DNA of 64,000 nt, taken from positions 1,287,763 to 1,351,762 of the forward strand of contig NZ_QRDP01000004.1 in NCBI RefSeq assembly GCF_003385775.1, written 5' to 3'. A program made the position numbers and the translations under genes. Positions 9,377 through 16,137 of this stretch are shown piece after piece. This stretch comes from Parasphingopyxis lamellibrachiae. Its GTDB lineage: Bacteria > Pseudomonadota > Alphaproteobacteria > Sphingomonadales > Sphingomonadaceae. Numbering within the stretch: the stretch's first letter is position 1; every line of letters starts with the position of its first letter. Below the pieces are notes generated by a model. It had not been told where the DNA came from, ran no database searches, and was given only the letters and a program-made list of their open reading frames with translations.

Positions 9377-10530
9377 ACCCGGTTTTGAGCGCACTGCCGA
9401 CGACCATTTTCGAAGAGATGTCGAGCCGGGCCAGGGCGAGCGGGGCGATCAATCTCGGACAAGGGTTTCCCGATTCCGAGGGGCCGGACGATGTGCGGCA
9501 AGTCGCAGCGGAGGCGGTGCTCTCAGGCTGGAACCAGTATCCACCCATGCGGGGTATAGCCGAACTCAGGGCCGCTATCGCCAGCCACTATGCCGCGCAT
9601 CAGGGGCTGGATCTCGACGACCAAAGCGAAACTCTCGTCACATCCGGCGCAACTGAGGCACTGGCCGCTTCGATCCTGGGCCTCGTCACCCCCGGCGACG
9701 AAGTGATACTGATCCAGCCTGCCTATGATGCCTATGCACCGCTTGTACGGCAGGCAGGCGGCGTACCGCGCTTCGTAACCACACACCCGCCTGACTGGTC
9801 GATCGCCGCCGGAATGCTCGAAGCGGCGGTTGGCGACAAGACCCGCTTCATCATCCTCAACAGCCCGCTCAACCCGGCCGCGACCATGCTCGGCGATGAA
9901 GAACTCGCCCTACTCGCCGATTTCTGCGTCAGGCATGACCTGATCGCGATCTGCGACGAAGTATGGGAGCATATCGTCTTTGACGGCCATACGCACCGCT
10001 CGCTCCTGACCATGCCGGGAATGAGGGAGCGAACCGTGAAGATCGGCTCGGCCGGCAAGATCTTTTCGCTCACCGGCTGGAAGGTCGGCTGGGTCATTGC
10101 GGCTGCACCGCTCTCCGCGGCCATCGCCAAGGCCCACCAGTTCCTGACCTTCACGACCCCACCGAATCTGCAGGCCGCCGTCGCCTACGGACTCGGCAAG
10201 GACATGACCTATTTCACGGCCATGCGCGCCGGGTATCAGGCTTCGCGGGACCGGCTCACCGACGCCTTGTCCGCCGGCGGCTATGCCGTGCTGCCCGGTA
10301 TGGCGACCTATTTCCTCTCGATCGACCTTACACGGTCCGGCCTCGTCATGACCGACCGGGATTTTGCGATCCGGCTGGTCGAAGAAGCCGGCGTCGCGGT
10401 GATCCCGATATCGCCCTTTTTCGAAACAGAGCCGGTCACCAACATCGTCCGCCTGTGCTTCGCGAAAAGCGACGATGTGCTGGATAGCGCGGCCGAAAAG
10501 CTGGCGGCTGCCCACCAATTATTTGCCTAG
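9373..10530 (+). CDS. PLP-dependent aminotransferase class I/II (methionine/kynurenine type)
   Basis: A 385-residue fold-type I aminotransferase resembling kynurenine-oxoglutarate and methionine (YbdL) aminotransferases. Visible motifs: NLGQGFPDSEGP near the N-terminus, NSPLNPA for the substrate carboxylate region, CDEVWEHIVFDG with the PLP-binding Asp, and SAGKIFSLTGWKVGW with the Schiff-base Lys. The start ATG at 9373 overlaps the permease stop in an ATGA. A much longer upstream extension in this frame lies inside the permease gene and is not protein-like. It converges with the TIR-domain gene, the last 4 bp overlapping. Confidence 0.9.
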   Translation: MNPVLSALPTTIFEEMSSRARASGAINLGQGFPDSEGPDDVRQVAAEAVLSGWNQYPPMRGIAELRAAIASHYAAHQGLDLDDQSETLVTSGATEALAASILGLVTPGDEVILIQPAYDAYAPLVRQAGGVPRFVTTHPPDWSIAAGMLEAAVGDKTRFIILNSPLNPAATMLGDEELALLADFCVRHDLIAICDEVWEHIVFDGHTHRSLLTMPGMRERTVKIGSAGKIFSLTGWKVGWVIAAAPLSAAIAKAHQFLTFTTPPNLQAAVAYGLGKDMTYFTAMRAGYQASRDRLTDALSAGGYAVLPGMATYFLSIDLTRSGLVMTDRDFAIRLVEEAGVAVIPISPFFETEPVTNIVRLCFAKSDDVLDSAAEKLAAAHQLFA

Positions 10531-12155
10531 CGCGGCGCGCGCCAGCGATAGCTGCCCGAATAGAGCCCGGCCACGGGATTACCCGAAGCATCGCGTCCCG
10601 GCCGGAAGCGTCCCCGGCTCATCACCATGTTGCAGGCCCTGGCATCGAGCTGGAAATGACCGCTCGACCCGATCGTGAAACAGGCGGTCGGCACACCGTT
10701 TGCGCCGACCCGCACCTGAAAGCGCGACGTACCTTCCTCGCCGTTACGCAGGATATTCGCCGGATAGTCGCTCGCGCGAACCCAGTTTCCCGGATTTCCG
10801 ATCGGCTCGGGAGGCGTGGTCCTGGTTGTGCGGGGCGGATCGGGTTGCGCAGCAGGCCGCGTCTCGGCCGGCCGTGTCTCAACCGGCGTGGTCGGCCGCT
10901 CGGCTGCCGGTGTGCGTTCTGCCGGTGCCGTCTCGCCGGGGCTCTCGGGCACCTGCATCTCCGGGGCTGCTTCTTCCGACTGGTCTTCCTCTGCGGCGGG
11001 GTCCGGGTCGGCCTCCACAGGCAGATCATACTGACCGAGTTCCCCTTCCCGGGCATCATAGACGGTGGCGACGCAAGCCGCCGTCCGGCATTCGTCACGC
11101 CGCGCCTGGTAGGCGGCATAACCTTGTTGCAGGGCAATCCGCTGCTGACCATCGGCCTGCGTCAAAACGGCCTCATAGAGATCCGATAATTCGCTTTCGC
11201 GACTGCGCAGCGCTTCGCTGGCGCAAATGATGCCATGGCTGGCCAGATCGGTATTGGCGCAATCCACGCTTGGCGAAAGGACGCTATTCTCAGCTTCCTC
11301 ACCGGATTCTCCACCGGACAGGAAAAAGAATAGCAAGAGAATCACGACTATCGCCAGCACTGCCGCCCCGATAACCATCATCGTCTTCCGGTTCGGCGGG
11401 TTGCCTCCGGCTTCCCCGTCCCCGGGCGCGGCGCGCCCCGATGCAACGGGTGCCACCTTTAACGGGCTTGGCTGATCCGGGGTGTCGGGCGGCTCGGGCA
11501 ACTTTGCAGTCGCCTGTGCCGGCGACTGCTCGGCGGGTGGAGTCGGCGGCACTACAGACGGCACGCCGATGTCGGCGGCAACCGGCTCGGTCTCGGATTC
11601 CTTTTCACTTTCCGTCTCTTCTGGCGGGACCGGCGGCACCGCAGGAGGCGAAGCGACGGCGCTTTCCTCAGGCGGCGGTACAATTGCAGAAGCGACAGGT
11701 TCGCCCGCCTGCTCCTTGGCCACACTCATCGCAACGATCCGCTTGATCGTATCGATCATCCGCTGGATCGTATCGTCGCGCCGGTCGAACCAGTCGATCC
11801 ACTGATAGTCGTTCAGCCAATAAGCCAGGCCTTCCGCATCGATATTCTCAAGTCGGACGGGAAAGATAAGCTTGTCGCCATTTTCCGCCATCATCAGCTC
11901 TCGCTTCACGTGGCGCGACTGATCGGACCGCGAACAGAACAAGAGAATGATCAGGTCGGACCGACGCACCTGTTCGATAATCGCCTGATCGAACGGCCGA
12001 CCCGGATCGATATCGTCGGGCGCCATCCAGCCATCCACGCCGTTGCTGCCCAATACCTTTTTGAGCTGGCGGGCGGTTTCGACCTGGGAACTGTGATGAC
12101 TGATAAAGGCTACAGGGCGCCTTTGACCGCTCGTGTCCGCGCCTTCAGCGCCCAT
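10527..12155 (-). CDS. TIR-domain membrane protein with LprI-like and TonB-C-like domains
   Basis: A 542-residue multidomain protein. Residues about 12-140 are a TIR domain: VAFISHHSSQVETA, then GWMAPDDIDPGRPF, SDLIILLFCS and SRHVKREL, where E86 sits at the position of the catalytic Glu of TIR NAD-cleaving enzymes. A Pro/Glu-rich linker (150-255) leads to one membrane helix (258-279, VIGAAVLAIVVILLLFFFL). Outside it, residues 299-374 resemble the LprI/DUF1311 lysozyme-inhibitor domain with four Cys, then another Pro/Thr-rich linker, and residues 455-541 resemble a TonB C-terminal domain. TIR would be cytoplasmic and the rest periplasmic. A TTG four codons upstream is an alternative start. It follows the small regulator gene by 121 bp on the same strand. 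Function unknown; stress or envelope signalling is an inference. Confidence 0.82.
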   Translation of the reverse strand: MGAEGADTSGQRRPVAFISHHSSQVETARQLKKVLGSNGVDGWMAPDDIDPGRPFDQAIIEQVRRSDLIILLFCSRSDQSRHVKRELMMAENGDKLIFPVRLENIDAEGLAYWLNDYQWIDWFDRRDDTIQRMIDTIKRIVAMSVAKEQAGEPVASAIVPPPEESAVASPPAVPPVPPEETESEKESETEPVAADIGVPSVVPPTPPAEQSPAQATAKLPEPPDTPDQPSPLKVAPVASGRAAPGDGEAGGNPPNRKTMMVIGAAVLAIVVILLLFFFLSGGESGEEAENSVLSPSVDCANTDLASHGIICASEALRSRESELSDLYEAVLTQADGQQRIALQQGYAAYQARRDECRTAACVATVYDAREGELGQYDLPVEADPDPAAEEDQSEEAAPEMQVPESPGETAPAERTPAAERPTTPVETRPAETRPAAQPDPPRTTRTTPPEPIGNPGNWVRASDYPANILRNGEEGTSRFQVRVGANGVPTACFTIGSSGHFQLDARACNMVMSRGRFRPGRDASGNPVAGLYSGSYRWRAPR

Positions 12156-12276
12156 TCCCGCCCCCAAAATCCTGCAATCGGCCGATGCTAACCCCCTGCT
12201 ACCACCGCATATCCCGATTTCTTCGGCATATGGACCGATACGATTACACTAGGCAACCGCTCTCTCGACGGCAATG

Positions 12277-12636
12277 TTACACTTTGCCGGGCAGGGAGCG
12301 ATGGATTGAGCGGCAGTCCACATGGGAAATCGCCAGGCGATACCCCTCCCCCCGGACCGTTTCGATCAGACGCGCCGCGCCCACTTCCCTCAGTTTCGAG
12401 CGCAGCCGGCAGAGATGCACATCGATCACATTGGTCCCCGGATCGATGGAGAGCTTGCAGACATGGCGCAGCAGTTCCGCCCGCGAAACGATGACCGGAC
12501 ATCGCAAGACAAGGTGCACGAGTAAATCCAGCTCGCGCGTACAGAGAGAGATCGGCTTCCCGTCATAGCGAACCCGGCGGTGAAGAAGATTGATACGAAG
12601 ACGATCAAAGCCAAATTCGAAACGGGCGACATCCAT
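12277..12636 (-). CDS. Stand-alone OmpR/PhoB-type winged-helix DNA-binding protein
   Basis: A 119-residue protein that is almost entirely a Trans_reg_C winged helix: LCTRELDLLVHLVLR (alpha-1 region), VSRAELLRHVC, the recognition helix in TNVIDVHLCRLRSKLRE, and the wing RLIETVRGEGYRLA. There is no receiver domain and no membrane helix, so it is neither a normal response regulator nor a CadC/ToxR protein as read. The ATG at 12636 has a good RBS (GGGCAGG) and starts just before the domain; the frame continues up to a GTG at 12714 with a hydrophobic stretch, so a longer form is possible. It lies downstream of the two cupin/helical genes on the same strand and may regulate the cluster. Confidence 0.72.
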   Translation of the reverse strand: MDVARFEFGFDRLRINLLHRRVRYDGKPISLCTRELDLLVHLVLRCPVIVSRAELLRHVCKLSIDPGTNVIDVHLCRLRSKLREVGAARLIETVRGEGYRLAISHVDCRSIHRSLPGKV

Positions 12637-12733
12637 CGCCGAAACCTGCCCGCACAAGACCGAAAGAGCCAGATGCACTATGGCCATATTCGACAGACCT
12701 GCGATGCCGGACACCCGGTTCAGCCCGTAACAT

Positions 12734-13627
12734 TCAGTCGGAGCGGTTCAGCCAGTTGCGACAAAGACCGGCAAGCTGCCCGCTGGGATCGCCGGCGCCC
12801 CGTTCCAGCATGTCCTGCTTGGTCTCCGCATCGCCCGCACCGTCGACAAGTGCGACAATGGCATCGAACCGCACATGATCGCTGGGATGGCGACCGGCGA
12901 AATCCGCGACAAGCGCCCGGCCCGTCTCACCGCCTGTCGCAAGCGCCGCCCGCATCACCATCGCGCTCGGCATGGTTGTGAGCAGGCCGGCAATCTTCTT
13001 CTCCTCAAGGTCAAAACGATATTGATCGGACCAACCGGATCTGGATGACGATCCGATAAGATTGATCGAAACAGAGAGGGTTTCGGGCGGCAACTGACGA
13101 TGAATGTCCCGGTGCGCGCGATACAGCAGCACCCGACCCTGTTCCAGCCGCGAGCGCTCGATGAAGCGCAGCGGTACGGCCTCGCCCGGATATCCGGCGA
13201 CGTCCTCATAGTCATATTCGTAATAGTCGCTCCAATAACCGGGGCCCGCATAACCGACGGTCAGGAAACTGAAATTATGATCGTGCGGGAGATTGTAGAA
13301 AAAAGCGTGCTGGCCGCTGGCCCGGACGATGCTGTCACGTTCCGAGGGCCAGAAATTTGCCCGCACGAAATACCCCTTGCCGGCATGGAGCATGACAACC
13401 TGTATGCCGTAACGGTTGTGGCGCGCCTGTTCGCCGCAGCGGTTTTCGAGCTCCCGGATGACGAACTCGGCCAGAAAGCGGCGATTGTTCGCCAGCCTGC
13501 CGAGCTGCGGTGCAAACGCAGCGAGCGAGGCCTCGTCGCAGGGATCGACATTGCCCGCGTCGACCGACTCAACAAACTCTTCCAAACCGATCGCATCGGT
13601 ATCGGGGCAGCTTAGCTCGACTGGCAT
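12734..13627 (-). CDS. Cupin-like protein with helical C-terminal tail (candidate peptide-modifying enzyme)
   Basis: A 297-residue protein I cannot name. Its core (about 72-205) reads as a double-stranded beta-helix: GIQVVMLHAGKGYFVRANFW, then LPHDHNFSFLTVGY with H115 and H117, GPGYWSDYYEYDYEDV, and GRVLLYRAHRDIHRQLPP with H172 and H176, then SVSINLIG. The H-x-H plus later His arrangement is what a cupin metal site, for example of the cysteine-dioxygenase type, would show. The C-terminal 90 residues are helical and HEAT-like (PSDHVRFDAIVALVD). The same tail pattern is seen in the upstream gene. The ATG at 13627 overlaps the upstream gene's end by 16 bp. Enzymatic activity on the small peptide encoded at the head of the cluster is inference. 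Confidence 0.72.
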   Translation of the reverse strand: MPVELSCPDTDAIGLEEFVESVDAGNVDPCDEASLAAFAPQLGRLANNRRFLAEFVIRELENRCGEQARHNRYGIQVVMLHAGKGYFVRANFWPSERDSIVRASGQHAFFYNLPHDHNFSFLTVGYAGPGYWSDYYEYDYEDVAGYPGEAVPLRFIERSRLEQGRVLLYRAHRDIHRQLPPETLSVSINLIGSSSRSGWSDQYRFDLEEKKIAGLLTTMPSAMVMRAALATGGETGRALVADFAGRHPSDHVRFDAIVALVDGAGDAETKQDMLERGAGDPSGQLAGLCRNWLNRSD

Positions 13628-14604
13628 ACTGACGGACTTTTCGGGCCGGAGAGGCGCCGGAGCAGATCCAGGGTCTGGCATGCGGCAAACCGAATTTCAT
13701 GATGCGGGTCGTTTCTCGCCATTTCGGTCAATCGCGGCAATGCCGAGACCGGATCCAGGGAAACCCATTCCCGCATCACATCCCAGCGTACGTAAAAAGG
13801 TGCTTCGGCTATCACCCGATTAAAAACGGCCGGTGCGCTAGGCACACCGAAACGGGAGAGAAAGCTCGCCATGAGCTGAACCCGGGACCAGGCCTCCGAG
13901 CCGCTGCTCCGGCCGACACACTGGCCCGAGTCGGCCTCATATTCCCGCGCCAGTTCTGCACCGCCAACCCGCAGCTCCCCGTATAGGAAGAGCACAAGGC
14001 TATCGGCATGGTCGAACACAAAGCTTCGCTGTGCCAGATCGATGGAGAGCAGTTCGGCCTGGGCAATCTCTTTATCACCCAGGCGCAGACATTGAGTCCC
14101 TGCATCAGGATTTGTGTCGCTCCGGCCATGCTTTTCCCAAAAAGACATGCGCAGGCCGCCCGGTTCGAGAAATTTCAACCAGGCGCGGCTGCCGGAGAAA
14201 AAGACCGATCCCTTTTCCTGTCTCTGACGCTTGCATGCGCGCAGCCGGGCGGAGTCGATGGCGCACAGAGATATGGTGACACCGGGCAGTTCGAGCAGCA
14301 GGGCGCTTTCATGAAAAGCGCCCGACGCGGGACGAAAGGGTGGCACGAAGAAACAGTCTTTTCCCGCCTCCCCGATCCAGTCCCGAGTGAGCATGGTCAC
14401 CCAGTCCGTGTCCGCGAACAGCTTTTCTATCGCCGTGCCGATAGTGCCACATTCATCTTCTCCCAGCCCCTCTACAGCCTGCAAGAAAGCCGCCACCGGC
14501 GGGAATGCCTCAAGGCGGCGGCGCGCTGCCGCCGTGCGTTCCCGTCCGGTATTGTCGAGGTCTGCGCAGTCGAGCCAGGCCCGAAATTCATCACGCGGCT
14601 TCAT
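13612..14604 (-). CDS. Probable paralogue of the cupin-like protein, metal site degenerate
   Basis: A 330-residue protein of unknown function. After an alpha-helical N-terminus (1-85) comes a beta-rich region (about 100-222: SALLLELPGVTISLCAI, GSVFFSGSRAWLKFL, LRMSFWEKHG, SFVFDHADSLVLFLYGE) that parallels the core of the downstream protein but lacks its His-x-His. The C-terminal part (about 235-318) is helical, with APFYVRWDVMREWVSLDP matching HPSDHVRFDAIVALV of the neighbour, followed by a second repeat-like unit (MARNDPHHEIRFAACQTLDLL). I infer that the two genes are distant duplicates, perhaps an active and a scaffold subunit. It starts 13 bp after the 45-codon peptide gene and overlaps the downstream gene. 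Confidence 0.7.
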   Translation of the reverse strand: MKPRDEFRAWLDCADLDNTGRERTAAARRRLEAFPPVAAFLQAVEGLGEDECGTIGTAIEKLFADTDWVTMLTRDWIGEAGKDCFFVPPFRPASGAFHESALLLELPGVTISLCAIDSARLRACKRQRQEKGSVFFSGSRAWLKFLEPGGLRMSFWEKHGRSDTNPDAGTQCLRLGDKEIAQAELLSIDLAQRSFVFDHADSLVLFLYGELRVGGAELAREYEADSGQCVGRSSGSEAWSRVQLMASFLSRFGVPSAPAVFNRVIAEAPFYVRWDVMREWVSLDPVSALPRLTEMARNDPHHEIRFAACQTLDLLRRLSGPKSPSVCQSS

Positions 14605-14617
14605 CGCTGTTGCCAGT

Positions 14618-14755
14618 TCAGCTGCTGGGCGGGTTGATGATCAGAATGGCGATGCACTGGGCGCCGCCAACCTCCTGCTGCACGTTCGAACCATGCGCAG
14701 CAACGCTGGTCTCCAGCTCCGGCAGTTCTTCAATATCGATTGCACGATCTTCCAC
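14618..14755 (-). CDS. Small peptide, candidate RiPP precursor
   Basis: A 45-codon gene that starts with GTG at 14755, six bases after a strong AGGGGGG ribosome-binding site, and stops with TGA at 14618. An in-frame stop lies seven codons upstream of the GTG, so the frame cannot be much longer. Residues 1-31 are acidic and helix-prone (DIEELPELE and then HGSNVQQEVGG), resembling a leader ending in a Gly-Gly junction; residues 32-45 are AQCIAILIINPPSS, a hydrophobic tail with a single Cys. It is the first gene of a closely packed minus-strand set and precedes the 330-residue protein by 13 bp. An A/T-rich stretch with TATTAT (14806-14811) could be its -10. That it is a modified peptide precursor is inferred from size, layout and context. 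Confidence 0.62.
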   Translation of the reverse strand: MEDRAIDIEELPELETSVAAHGSNVQQEVGGAQCIAILIINPPSS

Positions 14756-14871: not shown

Positions 14872-16137
14872 TTAGTCGGTAAAGATGAGGACGGGCGTTT
14901 CGATGAGTTTTTTCAGCGCTTGAACATAGCTTGCCGCATCATAGCCATCGACCACGCGGTGATCGCAGGAGATGGAAATGTTCATCTGCTTGCGCGCTTC
15001 CAGCTCGCCATCGATGATGGCCGGTCGCTCGACAATCTTGTTCGGCCCGATGATCGCGACCTGGGGCCGGTTGATTACCGGTGTGGTCGCGATGCCGCCC
15101 AAGGGGCCCAGTGAAGTGAGGGTCAGCGTGCCGCCGCTAAGCTCCTCGCTCTTGATCTTGCCGGTCCGGGCCGCTTCGGAAAGCCGCGCGATTTCGAGCG
15201 ACAGCTGCCAGACGTTCATATCCTGCGCATTGCGGATCACGGGAACGGTCAGACCGGCATCGGTCTGCGTGGCCATGCCGAGATGTACTGCACCATGCCG
15301 CGTGACCGTGCCGCCCTCATCGTCATAGGTGGCGTTGAGCATCGGGAAATCGGGCAGCGTCTTGCAGATCGCCGCGATGATGAAGGGCAGGACGGTAAGC
15401 TTGGGACGATCGCCGCGAGACCCGTTCAGGTCATTCCGCATATCCTCAAGCTCGGTAACATCCATTTCCTCGACATAGGTGAAATGCGGGATGTTGCGTT
15501 TGGAGGCTGCCATATTTTCAGCGATCCGCCGGCGCATGCCGATAACCTTGATTTCTTCGTCTTCACGCTTCCTCGAGCGGCCGGGAGCCCGATAGCCCTG
15601 TCCGCTGCCATAGCTCAGATAGGCGTCGAGATCGGAATGCCGGATCCGGTCGCCATGCGGCTGAACCTGGGCGAGGTCGACACCAAGGTCGCGGGCACGC
15701 TCGCGCACGGCGGGCGATGCGAGAATGGGCGCGCTGGGCGACGGCGCGGGTGCTGCCTCAGCCACTGGTTGAGGCGCAGGAGTTGACGCAGGCGCGACAG
15801 TTTCCGGTTCGCTCGCTGCTTCAGTCGGTTCTTCCTTCGCGGGCTCCGGTGCAGCCTTTTGAACGACCGGCGCAACATCGTCTTCGTCGGGAATGTCATC
15901 GGTCTCGATCACGGCAAGAACGGAACCGATGGCCAGCATCTCGCCCGCTTCGCCGTTCAGTTCCACGACCTTGCCGGTAACCGGCGATTCCATCTCGACG
16001 GTCGCCTTGTCGGTCATCACATCGGCAATGCCCTGATCCTCTTCGACCTCGTCGCCGACCTGCACATGCCAGGCCACTATCTCTGCCTCGGCTATGCCCT
16101 CCCCAATATCCGGAAGCTTGAATTTATACGTTGCCAC
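14872..16137 (-). CDS. bkdB: Dihydrolipoamide acyltransferase E2 of branched-chain keto-acid dehydrogenase
   Basis: A 421-residue E2 subunit. It has one N-terminal lipoyl domain (FKLPDIGEGIAEAEI with the lipoylated Lys in VMTDKATVEMES), an Ala/Pro-rich linker, a peripheral-subunit-binding domain (SPAVRERARDLGVDL) and the catalytic chain-folded acyltransferase domain ending in SISCDHRVVDGYDAA with the active-site HxxxD. A single lipoyl domain and the E1alpha-E1beta neighbours favour a branched-chain 2-oxo acid dehydrogenase over the pyruvate complex. It begins with GTG at 16137 and overlaps the E1beta gene by 14 bp. An E3 gene is not seen within the window. Confidence 0.92.
   Translation of the reverse strand: MATYKFKLPDIGEGIAEAEIVAWHVQVGDEVEEDQGIADVMTDKATVEMESPVTGKVVELNGEAGEMLAIGSVLAVIETDDIPDEDDVAPVVQKAAPEPAKEEPTEAASEPETVAPASTPAPQPVAEAAPAPSPSAPILASPAVRERARDLGVDLAQVQPHGDRIRHSDLDAYLSYGSGQGYRAPGRSRKREDEEIKVIGMRRRIAENMAASKRNIPHFTYVEEMDVTELEDMRNDLNGSRGDRPKLTVLPFIIAAICKTLPDFPMLNATYDDEGGTVTRHGAVHLGMATQTDAGLTVPVIRNAQDMNVWQLSLEIARLSEAARTGKIKSEELSGGTLTLTSLGPLGGIATTPVINRPQVAIIGPNKIVERPAIIDGELEARKQMNISISCDHRVVDGYDAASYVQALKKLIETPVLIFTD

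Follow-up and report, generated by a model that had tools for sequence, protein, structure and literature searches.

The window analysed here is the whole 64,000-nucleotide stretch, which comes from a genome of 2.95 Mb. Four minus-strand genes, referred to as P, A, B and R, follow one another in that order between an upstream gene, which we take to encode a 2-oxo-acid dehydrogenase E2-like protein, and a downstream gene for a protein with TIR and TonB_C domains (Table 1). The stop codon of P lies 13 nt before the start of A, A and B overlap by 16 nt, and 19 nt separate B from R. A sequence-only reading of the window had described a 45-codon gene with a ribosome binding site, the 13-nt gap to a 330-residue protein, an overlapping 297-residue protein and a winged-helix regulator, and these coordinates are borne out. 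Between positions 10000 and 16500 no RNA element reached the gathering threshold. The promoter scan found none (shuffled sequences gave a mean of 1.0), and four terminator-like elements were detected against 3.1 in shuffles.

Table 1. Genes of the P-A-B-R locus and its immediate neighbours
Feature	Position	Strand	Description
TIR-TonB_C gene	10527-12167	minus	546 aa; TIR and TonB_C domains
R	12277-12714	minus	OmpR-type winged helix (Pfam Trans_reg_C, 2.7e-19)
B	12734-13627	minus	297 aa; cupin predicted to have a thiol-dioxygenase fold and a three-His set, followed by a helical tail
A	13612-14604	minus	330 aa; helical N-domain, cupin resembling thiol dioxygenases but with no conserved His, and HEAT-like tail; predicted to be a metal-free partner
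P	14618-14755	minus	45-codon peptide gene; GTG start, AGGGGGG run just upstream
E2-like gene	14872-16137		presumed 2-oxo-acid dehydrogenase E2-like gene, upstream of P

With only 45 codons and a GTG start, P might be taken for a chance reading frame, yet the dN/dS of P is 0.12 against L031, an uncultured Parasphingopyxis that is the closest named relative at the locus (its B is 76% identical to that of the window), and 0.23 against L002 (40 codons). Shifted frames of P compared with L031 give ratios of 7.0 and 1.7, and genome-wide matches to P adjoin A-B in 37 of 37 cases. A chance frame is therefore rejected as vanishingly improbable. In the comparison with L032 synonymous sites are saturated, so that no ratio is obtained. 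Judged by these codon comparisons, P is under purifying selection.

B was found in 110 loci, 30 from a search of 199 genomes of the window's family and 80 from a second search, with the window locus itself counted as L001. A is called directly upstream of B in 102 of these loci, which represent 99 distinct B sequences. Six of the eight loci without an A call (L080, L085, L095, L097, L103 and L105) have B within ~0.7 kb of the locus end; of the other two, L099 has an A detectable by tblastn and L104 shows none. A profile of P, grown from ten seeds, picks up a small peptide gene ahead of A in 98 of the 102 loci, the stop lying 874-1168 nt from the match to B, and in the other four (L075, L028, L065 and L088) a peptide was recognised by eye. 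In all 102 A-called loci, then, A-B follows a short peptide with a related N-terminal motif and a hydrophobic tail. The earlier proposal of a cluster made up of the peptide and two related cupin-like proteins is supported in that the three are conserved together. When whole genomes were searched with the profile, 37 of 119 were positive, with one P each. All 37 are also positive for B, and P lies on the B strand 890-1202 nt upstream of it, the place occupied by the gene before A.

Some loci carry several peptides before one A-B pair. Ferrimonas (L075) has five copies of P, four near-identical and one variant, and L161 has two peptide types (by eye). A second A-B copy in Sphingomonas trueperi (L034, 7514-11726) and in Sphingomonas sp. 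S2M10 (L038, 7515-11720) is preceded by three tandem peptides, which have like N-terminal parts (LPSLELEAG, LPTLDLEVG or LPTLELEVG, and LPALDLDVA) and different tails. Such multiplicity is as expected of substrates. The sequence-only reading had regarded the occurrence of the large genes without a small peptide gene as evidence against itself; this condition applies in part, since A-B has no evident small gene in seven distant loci inspected by eye (L128, L162, L164, and L136 with L166-L168, which belong to one family), but in none of the 102 A-called loci is that so. Upstream of A in L136 and L167 lies a gene of 315-316 aa, presumably JmjC/cupin-like, and the peptide is not evident in L136 and L166-L168, suggesting that A-B may have another partner there. 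In genome G1318 (L155/L156) three A-B copies lie within ~15 kb, next to a Yip1-HlyD-MacB cassette, and a peptide is clear for one of them. In L163 (genome G1340) a 63-aa frame ~1.1-0.9 kb upstream of the second B repeats a segment in slightly different form (STLFIFAA, STAFIFAA), a pattern known from multi-core precursors.

The peptide of the window carries the N-terminal motif IDIEELPELETxVxxHGS, followed by VGGxxC and a hydrophobic tail. Across 98 aligned peptides (numbering by alignment column) the N-terminal columns are conserved, including Pro16 (94/96), Gly31 (95), Leu18 (92), Asp11 (87/98) and Ile10 (86/98), and the tails vary; the nine most hydrophobic residues fall in the C-terminal half in all 98. 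P therefore resembles a RiPP precursor in being genetically encoded, short and composed of a conserved and a variable segment, between which cleavage would take place. More distant peptides, judged by eye, are very varied, and those of L159/L160 contain a double-glycine-type LTLEDAEFVSGGG segment. The suggestion that the single Cys of the tail is the general target did not survive the comparison: 77 of the 98 peptides have no Cys, any Cys is present in 21, and the GG-Cys tail is confined to a minority of relatives, so Cys as a universal target is rejected. The alignment column of this Cys holds Asp in 67 peptides, Cys in 15 and Glu in 14; with related rows and a column that another alignment might place differently, this serves as a lead only.

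Both large proteins are predicted with high mean confidence by AlphaFold2 (mean pLDDT 94.3 for B and 91.9 for A, with an all-helical N-domain in A). The top-ranked Foldseek match of B is 3-mercaptopropionate dioxygenase (4tlf; E 1.2e-8, TM 0.63 by target and 0.43 by query, rmsd 6.0), followed lower down by cysteine dioxygenase, ergothioneine dioxygenase and plant cysteine oxidases; 3-hydroxyanthranilate dioxygenases and seed-storage cupins also appear. For A the first match is mercaptosuccinate dioxygenase (E 6.8e-7, TM 0.58 by target and 0.37 by query, rmsd 6.1). These TM and rmsd values indicate fits at the level of the fold, and both models are accordingly predicted to have a thiol-dioxygenase fold. 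Family models say less. No Pfam or NCBIfam model matches P, A or B above cut-off, HEAT matches of A and B in Pfam are weak and below cut-off, and none of the thiol-dioxygenase Pfam models matches any of 44 members at E<=0.1. No PHROG matches P, A or B at E 0.1, and sequence searches of solved structures return at best E 0.66 (B) and 0.065 (A), to designed helical or unrelated chains. PADLOC, run on A, B and the TIR protein, reported nothing for A; its one match of B, to PglZ (E 0.0077 over 50 residues), is weak and partial and is taken as chance. RiPP clusters commonly, though not universally, encode a PqqD-like recognition element, and at E<=1 Pfam shows none in the four genes P, A, B and R or in the neighbouring TIR protein.

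The conservation of the two proteins differs. Among 22 diverse rows of B, 26-75% identical to that of the window, H115, H117 and H176 are invariant, as are, among others, R89, W93, F119, G128, G130, Y131, Q178 and S185. H172 is not conserved and is rejected as a metal ligand. In A just two columns, L249 and R273, are invariant, and none of the columns that are invariant or nearly so is a His. From these alignments, a three-His set that forms a putative metal site is present in B and absent from A. The earlier assignment of the His pattern to B alone therefore holds for H115, H117 and H176 but not for H172, and its division into one enzyme and one partner fits, since only B keeps a metal-type set. 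Kinship of A and B, also proposed earlier, is suggested by the profile comparison, the shared fold and the domain order; the top fold of both is indeed that of a thiol dioxygenase, but the hhalign comparison, which spans the tail and the latter half of the cupin, gives E 1e-4 with a probability of only 57.7%. Thiol dioxygenases carry a catalytic Ser-x-His-x-Tyr set next to the iron site. At the corresponding place, as located by sequence, B reads S185-x-S187-x-N189.

Exporter genes accompany A-B in some relatives. Cassettes of Yip1, HlyD, ABC and MacB genes lie on the B strand in four genomes (L127, L075, L155/L156 and L161), and ABC genes follow B in L127, L156, L161, L162 and L050. The Alteromonas plasmid locus L127 reads Yip1, HlyD, ABC ATPase, MacB-type permease, small peptides (by eye), A, B, ABC ATPase and ABC-2 permease, while in L075 the five peptides, A and B are followed by Yip1, HlyD, ABC, MacB and a histidine kinase. 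In L050 the genes after B encode a protein with a LuxR-type autoinducer domain and an ABC ATPase. In L034 and L038 a gene for a 590-591-aa ABC exporter starts within the end of the second B, overlapping its stop, and in L034 an HlyD-like frame comes next (by eye). Transport-type matches were obtained in five of the 73 longer loci of the second set (L034, L038, L050, L075 and L037, with flanks of at most 6 kb), that of L037 lying on the other strand ~2.4 kb away. Fourteen exporter- or regulator-type query proteins have no match in the 64-kb window at E 1e-5, and most sphingomonad loci, the window included, have no local exporter match to them within flanks of at most 6 kb.

R is probably a local regulator. 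Eleven listed loci from several genera, L001 included (L006 and L036 are the same sequence), have a same-strand winged-helix gene just after B (offset -13 to 195 nt), which bears out the placing of such a regulator in the cluster. No receiver domain was matched in R by Pfam; the winged-helix gene of L004 has a full-looking receiver, and several others have an N-terminal part like a worn receiver (by eye). R itself was found by tblastn in L002, L003, L031 and L032. The TIR-TonB protein also resembles LprI, though weakly and below cut-off, and inspection by eye suggests a transmembrane helix and a stretch rich in proline. Three genomes of the same genus each hold 5-11 matches to it, some TIR matches in neighbouring pairs. 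Among the 110 loci tblastn finds its gene only in the Parasphingopyxis-like L001-L003, L031 and L032 (the flanks of L002-L030 being ~1.5 kb), and a role as part of the system is not favoured on this ground. The same-genus genome G074 has neither B nor P; its order is the E2-like gene, a gene of TonB_C type for 130 aa (L181, 1357-1864) and an aminotransferase-like gene, indicating that P-A-B-R and the TIR part of the neighbour are absent together. In L033, L034, L035 and L038 (Sphingomonas/Sphingosinicella) a sigma-70-type gene, with regions 2 and 4 by Pfam on L034, lies ~2.6 kb upstream of B.

Taken together, co-occurrence, precursor copy number, the leader- and tail-like halves of the peptide and the linkage to exporters point to P as what A and B work on, and the fold of B with its retained triad points to B as an O2-using metal enzyme and to A as its metal-free partner. 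We assign a probability of roughly 0.55 to the reading that P-A-B is the core of a RiPP-like pathway in which A and B oxidatively modify the tail of P. In P, the N-terminal part (IDI..LPELxTxxGxxGS) would serve for recognition, and the hydrophobic C-terminal part would become the product. A and B may derive from a common ancestor of thiol-dioxygenase fold to which HEAT-like tails were added. They probably act together in physical contact with P, which A, having no metal-type His set, would bind or present, while B would hold a metal, probably Fe(II), through H115, H117 and H176. Using O2, B would oxidise P where the hydrophobic segment starts or at an adjoining residue. Cys, Asp or Glu aligns there in most relatives, and this site is suggested because such side chains can bind iron. 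Leader removal and export would follow, and R would regulate the operon. Counted against this reading are the seven loci with A-B and no evident peptide, the absence of a thiol-dioxygenase family-model match, the S185-x-S187-x-N189 residues of B, the lack of an exporter or regulator query match in the window and the small share of longer loci with transport matches (five of 73).

Two other explanations have to be weighed against the RiPP reading. P could be an unmodified bacteriocin-like or signal peptide, with A and B a chaperone or immunity pair that binds its hydrophobic tail and the cupin site of B structural or sensory. The exporter cassettes do resemble those of unmodified leaderless bacteriocins, the tails of P are very hydrophobic, HEAT matches in A and B, though weak, would suit such binding, and A is without a conserved His. 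The retention of three His with R89, Y131, Q178 and S185 across rows of only 26-75% identity, however, fits catalysis better than binding alone, and we regard this explanation as unlikely, if worth keeping in view. We judge it improbable that A-B oxygenates a small thiol or another metabolite and has P as a small regulatory or structural subunit. Such a role would account for the activity of most top folds on free small thiols (as given by entry titles), for the four related and three other loci in which A-B stands without an evident P, and for a setting like that of the core genome; five copies of P in L075, three different tandem peptides in L034 and L038 and two types in L161 would be odd for a subunit, as would the varied tails and the exporter linkage.

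Within the RiPP reading a more specific proposal can be made, which we hold tentatively and at somewhat less than even odds: a new RiPP class in which a catalytic three-His enzyme of thiol-dioxygenase fold works with an inactive paralogue to oxidise the peptide. The target would be a metal-binding side chain at the opening of the hydrophobic product segment, supplied by Asp or Glu in most lineages and by Cys in some. The product would be exported and bacteriocin-like in Alteromonas, Ferrimonas and some Sphingomonas, and a retained near-core peptide in many other Sphingomonadales.

Several known systems resemble parts of the locus. Thiol dioxygenases (3-mercaptopropionate, cysteine and mercaptosuccinate dioxygenases and plant cysteine oxidases) are like A and B in predicted fold, and like B in its three-His set; A and B differ from them in matching no family model and in having a HEAT-like tail, a helical N-domain, a partner with no conserved His and a peptide gene in the operon, and in B the catalytic Ser-x-His-x-Tyr set is not evident. 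In RiPP clusters of the MNIO/DUF692 type the gene of a short precursor adjoins those of an iron oxidase and its partner protein, an arrangement like P-A-B. MNIOs are described in PMC12257519 as multinuclear-iron enzymes, whereas B shows one three-His cupin site. The bawcin cluster, of the leaderless or circular bacteriocin type, has a small peptide gene flanked by a set for HlyD, an ABC ATPase, a permease and a Yip1 protein, as do L127, L075, L155/L156 and L161, and the Yip1 type is prevalent in circular bacteriocin clusters according to the available part of that account (PMC10707071). The bawcin gene table in that part lists no cupin pair (PMC10707071). P differs in its conserved N-terminal segment. 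Searches confined to open-access papers for a RiPP with a thiol dioxygenase, or with a cupin and a cysteine dioxygenase, returned nothing relevant. The best reading is that P-A-B works like a RiPP cluster and that, as far as the open-access literature shows, the enzyme pair is new in that role. If so, an enzyme pair of thiol-dioxygenase fold would be added to peptide tailoring, with a dead-enzyme partner evolving by duplication, and many Erythrobacteraceae and Sphingopyxis would have a conserved peptide product for which no report was found in that literature. The P-A-B trio is small (~2 kb) and easily testable in E. coli.

In the window's family B occurs in 74 of 199 genomes (counts here include the window genome or the centre genome of each sample). 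It is present in 15 of 398 genomes of a phylum sample, 13 of them in that family, and in three of 289 of the window's class, all three in the family. Further samples around genomes outside the class, which we infer to be Gammaproteobacteria, gave six of 147 (G322), six of 149 (G490) and five of 93 (G752, one match at only E 8.6e-4) at family level, and two of 369 in the class of G490. Beyond Sphingomonadales, the records that carry a name are those of Ferrimonas (L075), of a sequence labelled Blastopirellula (L050), and of plasmids from Alteromonas stellipolaris and from Vibrio (the last at 28% identity over 65%). No match was found in phages or viral contigs, and an origin in either is rejected. 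Many loci of Erythrobacteraceae and Sphingopyxis are flanked by genes of housekeeping type, named from sequence. A cluster of antibiotic type would not usually have such neighbours or be kept so widely within a family, which also counts against the RiPP-like reading.
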